22,373 bases of DNA, taken from the IMG/VR virus record IMGVR_UViG_3300007513_000220, positions 1 through 22,373 of that record; one strand, given 5' to 3'. This document shows, in pieces, positions 7,812 through 20,627 of the stretch. Position 1 is the stretch's first letter, and every line of letters begins with the position of its first letter. The notes under the pieces were generated by a model, which worked only from the letters and a program-made list of their open reading frames with translations, was not told the origin of the DNA and made no database searches. Position numbers and translations under genes: made by a program. Origin of the DNA: a virus.

Positions 7812-8597
7812 ATGGATACCTGTATGGCAAAAAAGTCAAACGAATCAAAAGATTTCACTAGTGAGCTAATAAAATCGCTTAACAAAGAACATGGAACACG
7901 TGTTGCATACAATTTGTCATGTGATGATTCACCAACACATGTCAAGCGATGGATATCGACAGGGTCCCGACTTCTAGACTATATCTGTTCAAACAGGAGA
8001 GACGGCGGCTTACCAGAAGGAAGAATTGTTGAAATATTTGGCCCGCCGTCAATTGGAAAGTCGCATATCGCTACTCAAATTGCAGCGTCTACACAAAAGA
8101 TGGGCGGAATTGTAGTATATATCGACACAGAAAATGCAACAAGTGTAGAAAACCTTGCAATGCTTGGAGTTGACGTATCAAAGAGATTCGTCTATGTTGA
8201 TACACACTGCACGGAAGAAGTATTTCAGGTTGCAGAGTCTACAATCTTAAAGGCACAAGGGCTGGACAAAGATGTACCCATTACTATTATTTGGGATAGC
8301 GTTGCTGCTTCTTCACCTAAAGCAGAGCTAGATGGCGATTATGATAAGAATTCTATAGGTCTTAACGCTAGAGCTATATCCAAAGGAATGCGAAAAATTA
8401 CTGGTGTTATCGGTCAAACAAACACACTGATGGTATGTTTAAATCAGACGAGAACCAAGATAGGCGTAATGTACGGGGATCCCACGTGCGTCGACCCGTT
8501 TACGACTAAAATTAAAATTCGTTACGACGAAAACTCACTTTTCGCGGAGAGGTTCCGTGAATATAATGCCAAAGGAGATAACGATGGCACTAACTGA
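7812..8597 (+). CDS. uvsX: UvsX recombinase, N-terminal part fused to a short split-intein N fragment
   Basis: Residues 1-225 are the RecA/UvsX N-extein: Walker A GPPSIGKS (residues 77-84), ETENAT-like strand (YIDTENATSVEN), Walker B region TIIWDSVAASS, and the conserved NQTRTKIGVMYGDPT leading into loop L2 (compare RecA NQIRMKIGVMFGNPETT). At that point Cys (nt 8487) begins a 36-residue intein N fragment (CVDPFTTKIKIRYD...), which stops at TGA 8595-8597. The rest of UvsX lies in the next two segments. Start: ATG 7812, or ATG 7824 with a weak GGAT ahead; neither has a strong Shine-Dalgarno. UvsX drives strand exchange in recombination-dependent replication together with gp32 and the gp41 helicase encoded here. 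Confidence 0.9.
   Translation: MDTCMAKKSNESKDFTSELIKSLNKEHGTRVAYNLSCDDSPTHVKRWISTGSRLLDYICSNRRDGGLPEGRIVEIFGPPSIGKSHIATQIAASTQKMGGIVVYIDTENATSVENLAMLGVDVSKRFVYVDTHCTEEVFQVAESTILKAQGLDKDVPITIIWDSVAASSPKAELDGDYDKNSIGLNARAISKGMRKITGVIGQTNTLMVCLNQTRTKIGVMYGDPTCVDPFTTKIKIRYDENSLFAERFREYNAKGDNDGTN
8487..8594 (+). mobile_element. Split intein IntN of uvsX, 36 residues
   Basis: Begins with Cys1 directly after GDPT in the L2 loop and shows the block A pattern CVDPFTTKIKI. It ends before any block B (TxxH) motif, which is instead found on the C fragment as TAVH. This is the 'atypical' split position known from AceL-TerL and VidaL inteins (very short IntN), not the common ~100/40 split. Its last 14 nt overlap the start of the IntC ORF. 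Confidence 0.8.
8571..8586 (+). promoter_or_regulatory. Ribosome binding site and start of UvsX IntC inside the IntN ORF
   Basis: AAAGGAG (8571-8577) lies 6 nt before ATG 8584, inside the end of the IntN reading frame, whose stop is at 8595-8597. This decides the IntC start over upstream in-frame ATGs (8557, 8566) and implies translational coupling, giving near-equal amounts of both halves. Confidence 0.75.
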
Positions 8598-8946
8598 AAG
8601 AGAAATGACTTTTTCTGAATACGCAAGTATTTTAGGGATTGATGATTTTGAAACACCCTGCGAATACGATCTAACTGACGTTGGTACTATGATTGAAGGT
8701 CAAAATGGTTTTACACCTATGACCAACTTCGTAGTAAAACCAGCTGTAGATATTTCGTATTTATTAGGAGATTTAAACGGGACAGCTGTTCACAGAACAC
8801 TTGTTGATGGAAGATGGACAAAGCTAAGGGATAATCCGGCAGCCAAACAACTGCATGGGAAAATGAGTGTAGTTGATGTTTCGGTTCCAGATGGAAACGC
8901 TTACATTGCTAACGGCCACATTAACCATAACACAACTCCGGGTGGT
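8584..8946 (+). CDS. uvsX: UvsX split intein C fragment plus five UvsX residues, up to the intron 5' splice site
   Basis: From ATG 8584 the first 116 residues are IntC: FTPMTNFVVKPAVDISYLL, a block B-like GTAVHRTLVDGRW (TxxH = TAVH), and the C-terminal block VVDVSVPDGNAYIANGHINHN with the splice-competent His-Asn pair. The extein then resumes with Thr+1 as TTPGG (8932-8946), which joins to MYGDPT to recreate the RecA L2 motif GDPTTTPGG. Without splicing the frame would run into the intron and stop at 8974-8976 after ELLASQARV, residues that do not fit any RecA protein. After intron removal it reads on into the exon at 9269. Confidence 0.85.
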
Positions 8947-9268
8947 GAATTGCTTGCCTCCCAAGCACGAGTATAAAATGCAAACTCATCCCGTGAATTG
9001 TCTGGGACACCCTGAAGCCTTTATCACTACAACGTGGCGAGTAATTGCGAGCGTGATAGTTCAAAAAGATAGAGGATTGGGCAATCAGCAGCCAAGTCTC
9101 CTGGTGACAGGTTAAAGGTTCAGAGACTAGTGCATGGAGTCTTCAATGAAGATGGTAAAGCACCACGAGCGCGGGACAAAATATTAATGAGCGATCTAAA
9201 TAAGCTTTCACACAATAGTATTTTTGAAGATATAGTCCATGCTAGTTAGAAATAACCAGAACAGAATG
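8947..9268 (+). ncRNA. Group I self-splicing intron in uvsX, 322 nt, no ORF
   Basis: Core elements in order: P1 formed by exon GGGTGGT (8940-8946) with guide GCCTCCC (8956-8962), giving the required U-G wobble at the 5' splice site; the CCTGAAGCC region; the Q element GGGCAATCAGCAGCCAAG; GGTTCAGAGACTA (5' strand of P7) and AAGATATAGTCC (3' strand of P7). The intron ends in G at 9268. Joining 8946 to 9269 gives PGG-AAIPFHSSIRL, which aligns without gaps to RecA GGNALKFYASVRL. The boundaries are therefore fixed both by P1 and by protein continuity. It contains no homing endonuclease gene. Open frames inside it are incidental. Confidence 0.92.
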
Positions 9269-9769
9269 GCTGCGATTCCATTCCATTCATCAATTCGCCT
9301 AAAATTGGGTGCTGGTCAGCAAATTAAAAATGGTGATGACGTTATAGGCATAAATGTTTCGGCAAAAACAATAAAGAATAAAGTGGCAGCCCCATTCCGG
9401 ACAGTTAAGTTCCAGATACATTTCGGAAAAGGTATTATAGAGCATGAAGAAATATTTGATATTCTCAGAAAGCATGGTCCAGTAACTGTCGACGGCAAAG
9501 TCATTGAAATTTCAGGAAATGGCGCCTGGAAGCACTACACACTAGCAGATGAGCTAACAGGTGAAGTGTTAGATGAGAAGAAGTTCTATAAACAAAAATT
9601 CAACGAATTGTTAGAGAAGCCAAAGTATTCTGCCTATATTGACAAACTTCTAGAAGTTGCTATGGTAAAAATTCTTGACAGTAACGAAAGTATCGATGTC
9701 AATGCTGAGTCTTACGAAGAAATACGTGCTATAGCTATGGAGCTCAAAGAAGATATTTCAGGGGAATAA
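9269..9769 (+). CDS. uvsX: UvsX recombinase, C-terminal exon
   Basis: 166 residues beginning AAIPFHSSIRLKLG, then the RecA-family KNKVAAPFRTVKFQIHFGKGI segment (compare RecA [21 protein letters not shown]) and a UvsX-type C-terminal region ending in an acidic tail. With the N-extein (225) and five linker residues the spliced protein is about 396 residues, close to T4 UvsX (391). An ATG at 9239 could open this frame but lies inside the intron and would add ten intron-encoded residues; it is unlikely to be the natural start. The stop is 1 nt before the GTG of the exonuclease gene. Confidence 0.9.
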   Translation, partial: AAIPFHSSIRLKLGAGQQIKNGDDVIGINVSAKTIKNKVAAPFRTVKFQIHFGKGIIEHEEIFDILRKHGPVTVDGKVIEISGNGAWKHYTLADELTGEVLDEKKFYKQKFNELLEKPKYSAYIDKLLEVAMVKILDSNESIDVNAESYEEIRAIAMELKEDISGE

Positions 9770-13183: not shown

Positions 13184-14032
13184 GTGACTTACTCTTTTAG
13201 TGACGTATACGAAAAAACATTAATATATTTTGATAATGATGAACTTGCTGCAAGTGTTTTTCCAACAAAATATGCCCTAACAGACAAAGAAGGAAATCTA
13301 CACGAGGAGACACCAGATGATATGCACCACAGAATGGCAAAAGAGTTCGCAAGAATAGAGGCAAACTACAAAAACCCGCTTTCTGAACAAGAGATCTATG
13401 ATATGTTCTCATCATGGGAAGTTGTCCCGCAGGGCTCCCCAATGTCAGGAGTAGGAAACCCATATCAGATTCAGTCATTATCAAACTGTTTTGTAATCGA
13501 CAGCCCAGAAGATAGCTACGCCGGAATACTACATACCGATCAAGAGCAAGTTCAGATTATGAAACGTCGTGGCGGCGTAGGCTTTGATATCTCGAAGATC
13601 CGCCCGAAAGGAATGGCTACATCAAATGCTGCTCGTACCACTGATGGTATTGGTATTTTTATGGAGCGTTTCTCTAACTCTACGAGGGAAGTAGCGCAGG
13701 GTGGCAGACGTGGTGCACTTATGATTTCAATCAGCTGTTTTGTTGGTGATACTTACGTGTTGACAGAAGATGGCTGGATGAGAATTGATAAAATTGTCAA
13801 TGAAGAATATTCAGGAAGAGTTTGGACACATGAAGGCCTAAAACCAATAACAGCATTTCAGAAATTTGAGAATAGAGAAGTGTTTGAAATAGAGTGTGAA
13901 AATGGCAGAAAGATTACTGTCACACCTGATCATGAGTTTGTTGTAAAAAATATAGTAACAGGCGAGGAATATCTCAAGCCGATTATCGAAGTCGACCCAG
14001 ATACTGAAGAATTAGTTTTCTATGATGAGTAA
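13184..14032 (+). CDS. nrdJ: Class II ribonucleotide reductase NrdJ, fragment A, with split-intein N half 1
   Basis: Residues 1-184 are the reductase N-extein; the remaining 98 are IntN1. The extein shows the substrate-site Cys in QSLSNCFVIDSP, the segment MKRRGGVGFDISKIRPKG and the loop GGRRGALMISIS, characteristic of B12-dependent reductases. The splice junction SIS|C matches the conserved SI..HPDI strand, which resumes at 15219 as CNHPEIETFINIK. The start is GTG 13184 with AAGGAAGG ahead, 16 nt after the helicase stop. NrdJ reduces ribonucleotides to deoxyribonucleotides by an adenosylcobalamin-generated thiyl radical. The fragment cannot act alone: the catalytic Cys/Asn/Glu are on fragment B. 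Confidence 0.9.
   Translation: MTYSFSDVYEKTLIYFDNDELAASVFPTKYALTDKEGNLHEETPDDMHHRMAKEFARIEANYKNPLSEQEIYDMFSSWEVVPQGSPMSGVGNPYQIQSLSNCFVIDSPEDSYAGILHTDQEQVQIMKRRGGVGFDISKIRPKGMATSNAARTTDGIGIFMERFSNSTREVAQGGRRGALMISISCFVGDTYVLTEDGWMRIDKIVNEEYSGRVWTHEGLKPITAFQKFENREVFEIECENGRKITVTPDHEFVVKNIVTGEEYLKPIIEVDPDTEELVFYDE
13736..14029 (+). mobile_element. NrdJ split intein 1, N half (98 residues)
   Basis: Starts CFVGDTYVLTEDGWMRID (block A) and has block B as TPDH (13922-13933). It ends at a TAA stop after LVFYDE. The fragment is strongly acidic (23 Asp/Glu against 10 Lys/Arg by my count), while its partner IntC1 is basic, the charge complementarity seen in classic split inteins such as DnaE. Confidence 0.88.
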
Positions 14033-14084
14033 ATATTTACTTTTTTAGTGCACTGATGTATATTTTTTATATGAGGCACACAGA

Positions 14085-15218: not shown

Positions 15219-16469
15219 TGCAACCACCCAGAAATAGAAACATTCATCAATATCAAACGTGATCTCACAAAAGTAACCGGTGCAAACATCTCAGTCAGGC
15301 TCAATGATGAATTCATGCACGCGGTTAAAAATGATGAAGAATTCCAGCTACAATGGCCAGTAGATTCAGATAACCCTGAAATAACAAAAACTGTTAGAGC
15401 TACTGATATCTGGGATCAAATAATCGATTCAGCTCATCAAATGGCAGAGCCCGGAATCTTCTTCTGGGATAACGTAATCAACAACTCTATTCCAGATTGC
15501 TATGCAGATTTAGGCTTCAAAACGGTTAGCTCAAATCCTTGTGGCGAGATAATTTTGAGCCCACTAGACAGTTGCCGGTTGATGGTGGTCAATTTAGCCA
15601 AGTTTGTGCAAAAACCATTTACCAAACATGCACGCTTCAATTGGGATAAATTTTCATCAACAGTTCAAAAATCTCAACGTCTAATGGATGATCTGATTGA
15701 TTTAGAAATAGAGCAAGTAGATAAAATAATAAACAAAATCCAAGAAGATCCAGAGCCTGAAAACGTAAAACAAATAGAGCTAGAGCTGTGGCAAGGAATC
15801 AGAGAGCAGGCCCTGAAAGGACGTAGAACAGGGCTCGGGGTAACTGCTGTTGGCGATACACTGGCAATGCTAGGCCAAAAATACGGTTCAGAAGAATCCG
15901 TTACTACTATAGAAAAAATCTACAGGCATCTCGGGGTAAACGCTCATATCTCTTCATGCATTCTCGCTGGCGAGCGTGGCACGTTCCCAATATTCGACCA
16001 TACAAGAGAAATAGGAAATAAGTATTTAGAAAAAATACTAGCAGCTGATAATGAGCTAGGTGCCCTGTATTCTAAACATGGTCGCAGAAATATTGCACTA
16101 ACTACGACGGCGCCAGCTGGTTGCTTGGTTGCCGAAACAGAGGTCAAGACAGACATCGGAGTAATGACGCTGGAAGATATTTTCTATGAAAACGATATTG
16201 ATATTAATGACCTGCAAAGCGAGTCACGGATCTGGTTTGAAGCAACTAAAGAAATAAATGTTTTTGATGTTCATGGACAAGCGCATTCAATAACTAGATT
16301 ATTTTGGAATGGAAAATCAGAAGGAAAAATTATAAAAACATCTGCTGGTAATGAGATAAATTGTAGCGATGAGCACAAGATGCTGATTCTGTCAAAATGC
16401 GGAAAATTTGGAATCTGGAAACGAGCAGATGAGATCATTCCTGGTGACAAAATTGTAAAAGTTTCATAA
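15102..16469 (+). CDS. nrdJ: NrdJ fragment B (catalytic core) flanked by IntC1 and IntN2
   Basis: Three parts: IntC1 (39 residues), reductase extein (301 residues, 15219-16121) and IntN2 (115 residues). The extein opens CNHPEIETFINIKRD, carries the active-site block SSNPCGEI (15525-15548; radical Cys, plus Asn and Glu) and SRLMVVNLAKF-like strand (CRLMVVNLAKF), the GRRTGLGVTAVGDTLAML segment, and ends RRNIALTTTAPAG. Resumption occurs at 17961 as SVSTLTQTTSGIEP. Both ends of this polypeptide must be trans-spliced, so it is a double-ended intein precursor. The start codon follows the endonuclease 1 stop with no gap, so its translation probably depends on ribosomes finishing the endonuclease. 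Confidence 0.9.
   Translation: MNKTTSKILKINPKGRETVYDFTVKDTHRILANNFYTSNCNHPEIETFINIKRDLTKVTGANISVRLNDEFMHAVKNDEEFQLQWPVDSDNPEITKTVRATDIWDQIIDSAHQMAEPGIFFWDNVINNSIPDCYADLGFKTVSSNPCGEIILSPLDSCRLMVVNLAKFVQKPFTKHARFNWDKFSSTVQKSQRLMDDLIDLEIEQVDKIINKIQEDPEPENVKQIELELWQGIREQALKGRRTGLGVTAVGDTLAMLGQKYGSEESVTTIEKIYRHLGVNAHISSCILAGERGTFPIFDHTREIGNKYLEKILAADNELGALYSKHGRRNIALTTTAPAGCLVAETEVKTDIGVMTLEDIFYENDIDINDLQSESRIWFEATKEINVFDVHGQAHSITRLFWNGKSEGKIIKTSAGNEINCSDEHKMLILSKCGKFGIWKRADEIIPGDKIVKVS
16122..16466 (+). mobile_element. NrdJ split intein 2, N half (115 residues)
   Basis: Starts CLVAETEVKTDIGVMTLEDI directly after APAG. Block B reads SDEH (16365-16376), Ser in place of the usual Thr. It carries an acidic insertion (YENDIDINDLQSESR) before the second strand and ends KIVKVS at a TAA stop. 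Confidence 0.85.
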
Positions 16470-16480
16470 GCTTCACTATA

Positions 16481-16509
16481 GCTCCATATTTATATGTGAA
16501 TGCTGGAGC
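16481..16509 (+). promoter_or_regulatory. Hairpin masking the ribosome site of endonuclease 2, promoter-like loop
   Basis: GCTCCA (16481-16486) pairs perfectly with TGGAGC (16504-16509). The 3' arm contains the GGAG Shine-Dalgarno for GTG 16514. The 17-nt loop holds the AT-rich TATTTATATG. In a read-through transcript the ribosome site would be paired; a transcript starting within the loop would leave it free. Confidence 0.5.
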
Positions 16510-17960: not shown

Positions 17961-18578
17961 TCAGTCTCAACTCTCACGCAAACGACATCAGGAATAGAGC
18001 CTGCATTCATGCTCAAATACACCCGTCGCCGTAAAATAACACACAGTGAAAACGTTGAAGCAGATTTCATCGATGATATGGGAGATAAATGGGTTGAGTA
18101 CGATGTATATCATCATGGTGTAAAACAGTGGATGGAAGCTACAGGGCTGACTGACATTGAACAATCGCCATATTTTGGCGCAACTGCTAATGATCTTGAC
18201 TGGAAACAAAGAGTAAAAATACAAGCAGCTGCTCAAAAATGGATCGATCACTCAATTTCAAGCTGTGTTTCCAAAGATACACTATTTGAAACTGACAGAG
18301 GGCTGCTTTATTATGATGAAATTGTTGACATAAATAATACAAATGAAGGCTTCAAAGAGTATATTGGTAATATTTCTTTAAAGACAGAAAGTGGTGAATT
18401 TATAATGCCTGATTATATTTTTAATAATGGCATCAAGGATACACTGGAGATAGAATTTTCTGAAGGGAGTGTCCTGAATTGTACAGAGAATGAGCTTTTA
18501 CGATGCATTATAGGTGATCGTTTAGTTTGGGTACGAGCTGATGAGCTTGAAGAAGGAGATGTTATTTTTAGAAGATAG
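17820..18578 (+). CDS. nrdJ: NrdJ fragment C flanked by IntC2 and IntN3
   Basis: IntC2 (47 residues), extein of 101 residues (17961-18263) and IntN3 (104 residues). The extein SVSTLTQTTSGIEPAFMLKY ... AAAQKWIDHSISS is the class II reductase segment after the catalytic barrel strand (compare TGTIS...GIEP and W.D.SISKTINLP). More than half of the polypeptide is intein. ATG 17820 has AAGGATAA ahead and lies inside the last codons of endonuclease 2 (stop 17831-17833), so translation is coupled. Like fragment B it needs two trans-splicing reactions. The short central extein would be difficult to fold on its own, which suggests splicing accompanies folding; inferred. Confidence 0.9.
   Translation: METINLENVAFDTVDILSIENTKNVTMDIEVAGTHYYTLGTGEVSHNSVSTLTQTTSGIEPAFMLKYTRRRKITHSENVEADFIDDMGDKWVEYDVYHHGVKQWMEATGLTDIEQSPYFGATANDLDWKQRVKIQAAAQKWIDHSISSCVSKDTLFETDRGLLYYDEIVDINNTNEGFKEYIGNISLKTESGEFIMPDYIFNNGIKDTLEIEFSEGSVLNCTENELLRCIIGDRLVWVRADELEEGDVIFRR
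18264..18575 (+). mobile_element. NrdJ split intein 3, N half (104 residues), unusual block B
   Basis: Starts CVSKDTLFETDRGLLYYDEI after the conserved SISS. The block B position reads TENE (18483-18494), with Glu where nearly all inteins have the His that assists the first N-to-S acyl shift. It ends ADELEEGDVIFRR at a TAG stop. The remaining fold pattern is intact. Confidence 0.83.
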
Positions 18579-18589
18579 TCCAATAAAAG

Positions 18590-18632
18590 CTTGATCATGC
18601 ACACTTATATACATACATACTATGATCAAGGG
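18590..18632 (+). promoter_or_regulatory. Hairpin masking the ribosome site of endonuclease 3, promoter-like loop
   Basis: A perfect 9-bp inverted repeat: CTTGATCAT (18590-18598) with ATGATCAAG (18622-18630). The 3' arm runs into the AAGGG Shine-Dalgarno (18628-18632) for ATG 18640. The 23-nt loop contains CACTTATATACATACATAC, an AT-rich, promoter-like element. The layout matches the described control of T4 I-TevI, where read-through RNA hides the ribosome site and a promoter inside the element relieves it; the function here is inferred. Confidence 0.6.
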
Positions 18633-18639
18633 ATAAATA

Positions 18640-19638
18640 ATGGGCTGCAAATCTGAAAGACATATAAAACTAATGAAAACTTGCTTATCCAGACACGCAA
18701 ATCAAACAAGAGAATTTCTCGATAATATTTCGATCGAAGAACTTTCATCGCTTTATAGCGAGTGGAAATCTCAAAAAACAAAAGCAGCCTACAGCAAGTG
18801 GAAAAAGTCAAATGATGAACGTGAAGAAAGCTTTTCCGAAAGATCTTTACGAGGTATGAGAAGCTGGGCTAGAAAAAACTGCAAAAAAGACCTAACTGAT
18901 ACTGAAGCATATGAGTTCGCAAAAAGCAACATGAAGCCTACCAATCATGGCTTGTTAATTAAACAGGGTTTGGCAAAAAAACATGGTGATAAAATATCTG
19001 ATGAATTTAGGCGAAGAAGAATACAGGCTATAGCAAACTATTTTGATGTGTCAGCAGCAAACGTGACAGAAGAGATGAATAAAGAGTTTTCTAAAAAGAA
19101 TGCAATAAAATCAACTGCACTAGAATGGAAAACATCTCATATTAGAAATATTGGTAAAAACATCGACGAAATGTCACCAGAAGAGATTGAAATAGCATAT
19201 TCAGAATATCTAAGCTTACGATATAAAAGAGAAAGTTTAGATCACAACAATGGCTACAAAAGATCAAAAAAAGGGTGGTTTAAATTTGCAACAGGCGTAG
19301 ATGTGTATTGCAGGTCATCATGGGAATTTAAATTTTGTAATATTGTGAATGAAAAAATAATCCAGCGTCCAGATCTTACTGCTAGATCACCAGATCGGAT
19401 TATGTATTTTTGCACAGCAACAAAGGTAAACAGGCACTATTATCCAGATTTTTTACTTACTTCTCCGCTTGGAAAGCTAGTGGTAGAAATAAAACCACTA
19501 AGCAAAACAACAGATCAAACAAATGTAGATAAATTTTTGGCTGCATCAAAGCTGCATGGTAAAGATTTTGTGGTTGTTACTGAGGAAGAACTTTTTCGTG
19601 ATAGCAAAATACAAGAAATAATTGAAAGGATATTGTAA
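18640..19638 (+). CDS. Free-standing TnsA/gp4-like PD-(D/E)XK endonuclease 3 in nrdJ
   Basis: 332 residues. The N-terminal ~210 residues are basic and helical, with no domain I recognise. The C-terminal domain shows VYCRSSWEFKFCNIV, then RHYYPDFLLTSPLGKLVVEI followed by KP, and later KFLAASKLHGKDFVVVTEEE. The spacing RSSWE...PDF...VEIKP...VVTEEE is that of TnsA-type nucleases and the T4 gp4 head-completion/DNA-end family, with catalytic Asp (PDF) and Glu-x-Lys (EIK). This is a different nuclease class from the two Vsr-like enzymes in the other gaps. ATG 18640 has AAGGG ahead, masked by a hairpin. The stop shares one base with the start of fragment D. Confidence 0.8.
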   Translation: MGCKSERHIKLMKTCLSRHANQTREFLDNISIEELSSLYSEWKSQKTKAAYSKWKKSNDEREESFSERSLRGMRSWARKNCKKDLTDTEAYEFAKSNMKPTNHGLLIKQGLAKKHGDKISDEFRRRRIQAIANYFDVSAANVTEEMNKEFSKKNAIKSTALEWKTSHIRNIGKNIDEMSPEEIEIAYSEYLSLRYKRESLDHNNGYKRSKKGWFKFATGVDVYCRSSWEFKFCNIVNEKIIQRPDLTARSPDRIMYFCTATKVNRHYYPDFLLTSPLGKLVVEIKPLSKTTDQTNVDKFLAASKLHGKDFVVVTEEELFRDSKIQEIIERIL

Positions 19639-19925
19639 TGGATTTTTTAAAAAACGGTAGATTACCATCAAAAATTAGAAGCTCAAAGAAGGCTGCGCTG
19701 ATGTTTCTTGTCGATATAGAGCAAGAATTTCGCCGCGTAGATGTAACAAATCCCGATATTTACACTTTGGCTAATTGGTGTGAGTATCCGTTCTTTGGAA
19801 ACGAGCTTCATACGTCAAATGTATCAATTGTAAAAAGTATAAAAAGTGGAAAAACTATAAGCACGTACGATTTTTCTGTTCCTGGCGCTCACAATTATAA
19901 TGCATCAAGCGTTATTTGTCATAAT
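19638..19925 (+). mobile_element. NrdJ split intein 3, C half, with a 60-residue N-terminal extension
   Basis: The last ~35 residues are a normal IntC (VSIVKSIKSGKTISTYDFSV through SSVICHN, Thr+1). Ahead of it lie about 60 extra residues (MDFLKNGRLPSKIRSSKKAA and onward, through TLANWCEYPFFGNEL) that typical split IntC fragments of 35-50 residues do not have. They may be a relic of an internal endonuclease or linker, or an added DNA- or protein-binding piece. Confidence 0.82.
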
Positions 19926-20627
19926 ACTTGTAATTTACCAGAAGACGCAACTCCAGAAAATGTCCGTGAAATCTATGAATCTGCTTGGGAATCTGGTTGT
20001 AAAGGTTTCACTGTTTATCGTGAGGGGTCACGTTCAGGTGTCTTAATCGACAAATCAAAACAAAAAGACAGCACCAAGTTCACATCACAAAGCGCACCAA
20101 AGCGCCCTGACGTTCTTAAGTGTGACATACATCATGCATCAATACAGGGTGAAAGGTGGACAATACTAGTAGGCTTATATGATAAAAAACCTTATGAGCT
20201 ACTTGGGGGACTTTCAGAGCTAATAGAGATACCTAAGAAATATCGATCAGGCTATATCGTCAAACACCCACGAAAAACAATGAACAGCATTTATGATCTC
20301 CACTTCGGAGAAAATGGAGACGAAGTAATAATTAAAAATTTGGTAAAGGTTTTCAACAATCCAAATTACTCATCATTTACAAGAGTGATATCTCTTGGTT
20401 TGCGCCACGGAGCTCCTGTTCACTATGCTGTAGAGCAGCTTCAAAAAGATAAAGATGCTGATATGTTTTCATTTAGCAAGGTAATAGCACGCGTGCTCAA
20501 GAATTACATAGACGATGGGACAAAATCATCTGAAAGAAAGTGTAGCAATTGTGGAGCAGAAGGGACAATGGTGTTTCAAGAAGGTTGCGTATCATGCACA
20601 GCATGCTCATCATCAAAATGTGGGTAA
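19638..20627 (+). CDS. nrdJ: NrdJ fragment D (C-terminal part) with IntC3
   Basis: IntC3 (96 residues) precedes a 233-residue reductase C-extein that begins TCNLPEDATPENVREIYESA, recreating SISS|TCNLPE (compare SISKTINLP). WESGCKGFTVYREGSRSGVL follows, the usual phosphate-binding end of the barrel. The tail carries CSNCG and CVSCTACSSSKCG-type Cys clusters (20539-20624), used for re-reduction of the active site and likely zinc binding in class II enzymes. Fragments A-D together give about 819 reductase residues, a normal class II length. ATG 19638 overlaps the endonuclease 3 stop by one base. Confidence 0.9.
   Translation: MDFLKNGRLPSKIRSSKKAALMFLVDIEQEFRRVDVTNPDIYTLANWCEYPFFGNELHTSNVSIVKSIKSGKTISTYDFSVPGAHNYNASSVICHNTCNLPEDATPENVREIYESAWESGCKGFTVYREGSRSGVLIDKSKQKDSTKFTSQSAPKRPDVLKCDIHHASIQGERWTILVGLYDKKPYELLGGLSELIEIPKKYRSGYIVKHPRKTMNSIYDLHFGENGDEVIIKNLVKVFNNPNYSSFTRVISLGLRHGAPVHYAVEQLQKDKDADMFSFSKVIARVLKNYIDDGTKSSERKCSNCGAEGTMVFQEGCVSCTACSSSKCG

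Follow-up and report, generated by a model that had tools for sequence, protein, structure and literature searches.

The block B histidine is described as the most conserved residue of inteins, and its mode of action, by strain, as a base or as an acid, is still debated. The reviews available to us name only two natural inteins that lack it. The Tko CDC21-1 intein of Thermococcus kodakaraensis is reported to be active without it by means of Lys58 (Tori et al. 2012, as described in PMC4031507 and PMC7765530). The Arth_1007 intein of Arthrobacter FB24 has an asparagine at this position and is a dead pseudogene (PMC3196547). In an engineered intein the histidine can be replaced by a bulky residue at position -1, or by strain alone (PMC6333167). 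Marine phage metagenomes are reported to contain fractured nrdJ and gp41 genes with split inteins (Dassa et al. 2009, as cited in PMC3653736). The subject of this study is the third intein of the nrdJ gene in IMG/VR record IMGVR_UViG_3300007513_000220, the whole record of one uncultured virus (22,373 bases; referred to here as the window). The gene encodes a class II ribonucleotide reductase as four extein segments. Three split inteins separate these segments, and a free-standing open reading frame (ORF) lies between the N-half and C-half of each intein. Intein 3 is best explained as a new class 1 split-intein variant, conserved in a small group of phages. It is carried on a mobile cassette, has an inherited glutamate in place of the block B histidine, and most likely trans-splices NrdJ.

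Nucleotides 18483-18494 read ACA GAG AAT GAG and encode Thr-Glu-Asn-Glu, residues 74-77 of the N-half counted from Cys1 (18264). A sequence-only reading of the window had claimed that the codon at 18492-18494 places a glutamate where the block B histidine belongs, and the register of block B was examined by structure and by alignment. The N-half was modelled by AlphaFold from an alignment limited to the window and viral loci, which are given as L numbers. The block B part of the model is confident (pLDDT 89-95). Residues 59-104 superpose on residues 75-120 of the Pho PolII mini-intein with 46 pairs at 1.1 Å (VIA-align, equal-length ranges). The superposition places Thr74 on PolII Thr90 and Glu77 on PolII His93, which are block B positions 7 (B7) and 10 (B10) in the PolII numbering (PMC8175363). 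A phmmer alignment to the Pho RadA intein likewise pairs TENE and TPSH. Foldseek on its own gave weak intein matches for the N-half. The 104-residue N-half contains no histidine at all, so no other N-half histidine can occupy B10, the case that the sequence-only reading had named as its refutation. The claim of a missing histidine is therefore confirmed, and Glu77 is the B10 residue. Conversion of GAG to any histidine codon requires at least two base changes.

Glutamate at B10 is unusual. Outside intein 3 and the three Glu-type relatives described below, histidine was found at this position in 57/57 N-halves, comprising 3 others in the window, 18 from the records of relatives, 27 from cyanobacterial genomes and 9 single matches. 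These include the nearest relatives L066, L145, L147, L047 and L083. No report of glutamate at B10 was found in the accessible literature, which omits most subscription papers and also the original fractured-gene paper. As far as that literature goes, the Glu-type cassette is undescribed.

Early searches turned up His types exclusively, and the glutamate at first appeared private to the window. The window N-half alone gave no useful match to viral contigs and phage DNA. Two-sequence profiles of the N-half and the nuclease recovered a single cassette relative, the His-type L066; apart from it they matched a head-closure nuclease, an unrelated ORF and the intein of a class I reductase. NrdJ junction patterns recovered L083 and, in a separate search, L145-L147 and one NrdJ without an intein (L148). 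A further junction-pattern search produced L047 plus three loci that on reading were not NrdJ. Cultured phages yielded no close cassette, and the three intein matches read there all have histidine. A profile of four N-halves recovered three further relatives, L152, L153 and L154, all of which have glutamate at B10. These lie on separate phage contigs and bring the number of Glu contigs to four, including the window.

The L152 and L153 N-halves are 53% and 48% identical to that of the window, and both cassettes share its insertion point and its nuclease plus C-half layout. Their block B tetrad is TPNE (CTPNEPIACF in both). L154, with the tetrad TTKE (VTTKEQF), has 37% identity in the tblastn match and about 31% over the whole N-half, and is found at a neighbouring insertion point, the one used by L066. 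The Glu77 codons across the four Glu types are GAG, GAA, GAG and GAA. Among the His types, L066 (TLDH) has a homologous split cassette and L145 (TLDH) and L147 (TNDH) have the same kind of cassette. The inteins of L047 (TPRH) and L083 (TTQH) are contiguous and share the insertion point of the window.

The site 3 insertion point (18263/19926) is shifted by one codon among these inteins. The window, L152, L153, L047 and L083 interrupt NrdJ before the threonine, or its equivalent, of SIS(S/N)-T. L066, L145, L147 and L154 interrupt it one residue later (SISKT-C). The +1 residue is threonine in the first case and, where the C-half is readable, cysteine in the second; the joined protein is correct in both. 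The -1 residue is serine in the window, asparagine in L152 and L153, and threonine in L154. In L145 (3040-4082, minus strand) the cassette nuclease is in two frames and both intein halves are apparently intact, as in a putative cassette that has lost mobility and must still splice.

Exactly three N-half positions divide the four Glu members from the five His members at site 3, namely Lys4, Pro49 and Glu77. Lys4 occurs in 4/4 Glu types and in 3/53 of the His-type N-halves in which residue 4 could be read. In the C-half, a block F histidine is present in 4/4 Glu types and is common among other inteins; the His types L066, L145, L047 and L083, whose C-halves are readable, have asparagine. A tree groups the window with L152 and L153 (support 0.98) and places L154 with the His types L066 and L145 (support 0.90 for the intein halves, 0.98 for the nuclease). 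Since L154 branches with His types, glutamate and Lys4 either arose jointly twice or were lost jointly. Under either history Glu77 and Lys4 appear, on this distribution, to be coupled.

One alternative is that splicing uses another nucleophile or route, for example Cys81 or the cysteine before the penultimate histidine. Both cysteines are common to the window, L152 and L153 and are absent from the His types, yet L154 has the glutamate and neither cysteine. Furthermore, Cys1 is intact in all members, and the class 3 signature is absent since block F position 4 is aspartate. We consider this route highly improbable.

The sequence-only reading had left two explanations for the glutamate, a variant mechanism or a decaying intein with failure of NrdJ. 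Divergence among the Glu types bears on this choice. Between the L152 and L153 N-halves, the proportions of synonymous and nonsynonymous differences (pS and pN) are 0.82 and 0.19. For the C-halves of the same pair, the synonymous and nonsynonymous divergences (dS and dN) are 2.55 and 0.16, and for the window and L152 N-halves they are 2.5 and 0.39. Read qualitatively, these values indicate that both halves of intein 3 are under purifying selection. The host protein is also constrained. NrdJ segment 4 has a dN/dS of about 0.05 between the window and L003, and in a relative-rate test the window branch has no excess of amino acid changes in this segment for most outgroups. Some of the segment 4 constraint may be older than the intein.

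The cassette has a history distinct from that of its host gene. L152 and L153 are 70-73% identical across the intein halves (73% for the N-half) and 56% identical across NrdJ segment 4. Because the intein halves are more alike than the host NrdJ, the Glu-type cassette probably moved after the glutamate was fixed. This comparison suggests that the cassette entered a divergent nrdJ by transfer between phages and was tolerated there. In L152 nrdJ the Glu-type intein is the sole intein seen.

In a decaying intein the histidine would have been lost by mutation, splicing would fail and NrdJ would remain unassembled. The dead Arth_1007 pseudogene, which lacks the histidine (PMC3196547), is a precedent. 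Against decay of intein 3, three other phage contigs also encode glutamate at this residue, with codons that differ synonymously; both NrdJ segment 4 and the intein halves evolve under constraint, and the remaining motifs are intact. The conservation and selection data taken together do not fit a decaying intein, and with the cassette movement they favour the variant over the decay offered by the earlier reading. We felt that decay is very unlikely.

The glutamate could also be an artefact that arose when the metagenome contig was sequenced or assembled. The window is a single metagenome record, and its nrdJ contains patches that match L003 exactly (13362-13629, 15447-15613 and 20001-20070; the rest differs by about 20%), which reflect either recombination or assembly chimerism. 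The Glu site, however, is outside these patches, an error would have to alter two bases or more, and the same residue recurs in L152, L153 and L154, a recurrence in three relatives that rules against chance or error. L152 and L153 in practice refute an artefact, whose probability is close to nil. Both decay and artefact were rejected once L152, L153 and L154 were found.

Several observations weigh against an inherited, functional glutamate. The block B histidine is essential or important in most inteins tested (PMC3196547, PMC6333167). There are just four Glu members, and L154 is about 30-36% identical to the other three. The dS values are near saturation, which makes the selection estimates qualitative. 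With the partial outgroup L017, the relative-rate test does show an excess in segment 4. Finally, Lys4 as an exclusive mark of the Glu types was rejected, as three His-type inteins share it (L130, L157 and L166).

Intein 3 was then assigned to a class. The nucleophile at position 1 is Cys1 in the window and all relatives, and the block B threonine is Thr74. The block B histidine, a class 1 feature that is near-universal but not absolute, is replaced by Glu77. The C-half has the block F aspartate and histidine, the penultimate histidine and the terminal asparagine, with Thr+1 following (YDFSVPGAHNY...CHN, then T). As Tko CDC21-1 is an accepted exception without the histidine, class 1 was kept for intein 3 with the label variant. 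Class 3 was rejected because Cys1 is present and block F position 4 is aspartate instead of cysteine; class 2 was rejected because its signature requires a non-nucleophilic residue 1. Apart from B10 the catalytic set is complete, so the class 1 pathway is available. Intein 3 probably splices, and Glu77, Lys4 and the block F histidine probably have roles in the reaction.

A bolder reading is proposed more tentatively, with slightly less than even confidence. In this natural phage split-intein family a Glu77/Lys4 pair would drive the N-S acyl shift in place of the block B histidine, and would have been gained or lost repeatedly within the cassette family. In the main reading, Thr74, the block F aspartate and the strained junction would act in the usual way. 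Glu77 would take the place of histidine next to the scissile amide as a hydrogen-bond acceptor or base, and possibly also as an acid if its pKa were raised. Lys4, three residues past Cys1, could position Glu77 or stabilise the oxyanion, a part modelled on that of Lys58 in Tko. The block F histidine would be the remaining active-site imidazole and would serve the later steps, attack by Thr+1 and asparagine cyclisation.

Glu77 might instead be neutral in a slow intein in which junction strain, the block F aspartate and the block F histidine suffice for the N-S shift. The block F histidine is present in every Glu type, and the engineered intein demonstrates that strain alone can replace the block B histidine (PMC6333167). 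But the four members keep glutamate specifically, with no variation at this residue. Lys4 co-occurs with it, and the -1 residue is serine, which is not bulky. We consider neutrality unlikely. Rescue by a bulky -1 residue was rejected for the same serine.

The features of cassette 3 are listed in the table. Segments 3 and 4 when joined read HSISS+TCNLP, exactly as in L003, the closest relative, where this sequence is uninterrupted. The intein halves are in separate ORFs that flank a putative endonuclease gene, which is the arrangement of a split intein in a fractured gene, and the same layout occurs in L066, L152, L153 and L154.

Features of cassette 3 and adjoining NrdJ segments in the window
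Feature	Position	Strand	Evidence
NrdJ extein segment 3, C-terminal end ...WIDHSISS	17961..18263	+	sequence comparison
NrdJ intein 3 N-half, 104 aa + stop, fused to extein segment 3	18264..18578	+	translation; intein matches by profile, phmmer and structure
Cys1, first nucleophile, Ser at -1	18264..18266	+	translation, alignment
Lys4, present in 4/4 Glu-type inteins of the site-3 family	18273..18275	+	alignment
Thr74, block B position 7	18483..18485	+	structural superposition, PolII numbering
Glu77 (GAG), block B position 10, His in other inteins	18492..18494	+	translation, structural superposition
Free-standing nuclease ORF between intein 3 halves, probable homing endonuclease	18640..19638	+	Pfam PF08722 (TnsA-like), phrog_218
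N-terminal extension of C-half ORF, kept in relatives; start codon overlaps nuclease stop codon	19638..19805	+	
C-half splicing core, about 40 aa	19806..19925	+	TIGR01443 match
Block F Asp	19869-19871	+	
Block F His	19890-19892	+	
Penultimate His	19920-19922	+	
Terminal Asn	19923-19925	+	
NrdJ extein segment 4, from Thr+1 (TCNLP...)	19926..20627	+	sequence comparison, constraint

The cassette 3 nuclease has homologs at the same place in L066, L152, L153 and L154, and its relatives include the T4 gp4-type family of head-closure nucleases (phrog_218). Its structure model is weak (pLDDT 59), and its profile had no match in the PDB. The relation to the head-closure family, noted together with L085:3498-3944, hints at a common origin for this homing-type cassette nuclease and a virion assembly nuclease. 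Hairpins are predicted between each NrdJ N-half and the next nuclease ORF (18590-18632, 16481-16509 and 14048-14078). They score only slightly better than shuffled sequences (z -1.6 to -2.7) and might have a role in controlling nuclease translation.

Another intein of the window interrupts uvsX (7812-9769) and is atypically split, with a short N-half ending at 8597 and a C-half ORF (8557-8976) that overlaps the N-half in another frame. The C-half ORF carries a likely block B, TAVH. A group I intron (RF00028, 8937-9259) directly follows. Window 8508-9243, which covers the uvsX intein C-half and the intron, is almost identical to L003 1816-2551 while the flanking genes differ by at least 15%, as expected from recent homing or exchange. 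In another phage the ribonucleotide reductase gene (L087:241-5353) is apparently broken by several split inteins, whose halves are almost adjacent and have no nuclease ORF between them.

Five known systems come closest to intein 3. Tko CDC21-1, insofar as the available accounts describe it, likewise lacks the histidine and keeps Cys1, and the proposed compensation is by a basic residue specific to its lineage. It differs in being a contiguous archaeal intein in CDC21 with Lys58 outside the motifs, whereas the candidate Lys4 of intein 3 is in block A and accompanies a conserved glutamate at B10. In the PDB, the CDC21-1 chains of Pab and Pho read TPTH and so have the histidine. Placement of Tko Lys58 at B10 plus 23 was dropped, since Pab chain residues near 58 precede block B. 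Ssp DnaB M86 H73A with a bulky -1 residue (PMC6333167) also shows that the N-S shift is possible without the block B histidine, but it is engineered and requires a large -1 side chain. Arth_1007 shares the lack of histidine; however, it is a degenerate class 3 pseudogene that is still dead after the histidine is restored (PMC3196547), whereas the motifs of intein 3 are intact and its substitution is conserved.

The marine-phage NrdJ inteins resemble cassette 3 in that nrdJ is split and the halves flank a free-standing nuclease ORF. NrdJ-1 (structure 8ubs) has the block B histidine (TPDH in the alignment), where cassette 3 has glutamate. The His-type sisters L066, L145 and L147 have a homologous N-half, as well as nuclease and C-half where readable, at nearly the same NrdJ position. 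They differ in having histidine at B10 and no Lys4, and L066 and L145 differ further in an asparagine for the block F histidine and in insertion one codon downstream with cysteine at +1. A conserved natural Glu lineage with His-type sisters at nearly the same site is a ready-made comparison, in which Lys4 and the block F histidine are two co-occurring positions open to mutation. If active, intein 3 would also make available a split intein with a histidine-free N-half.
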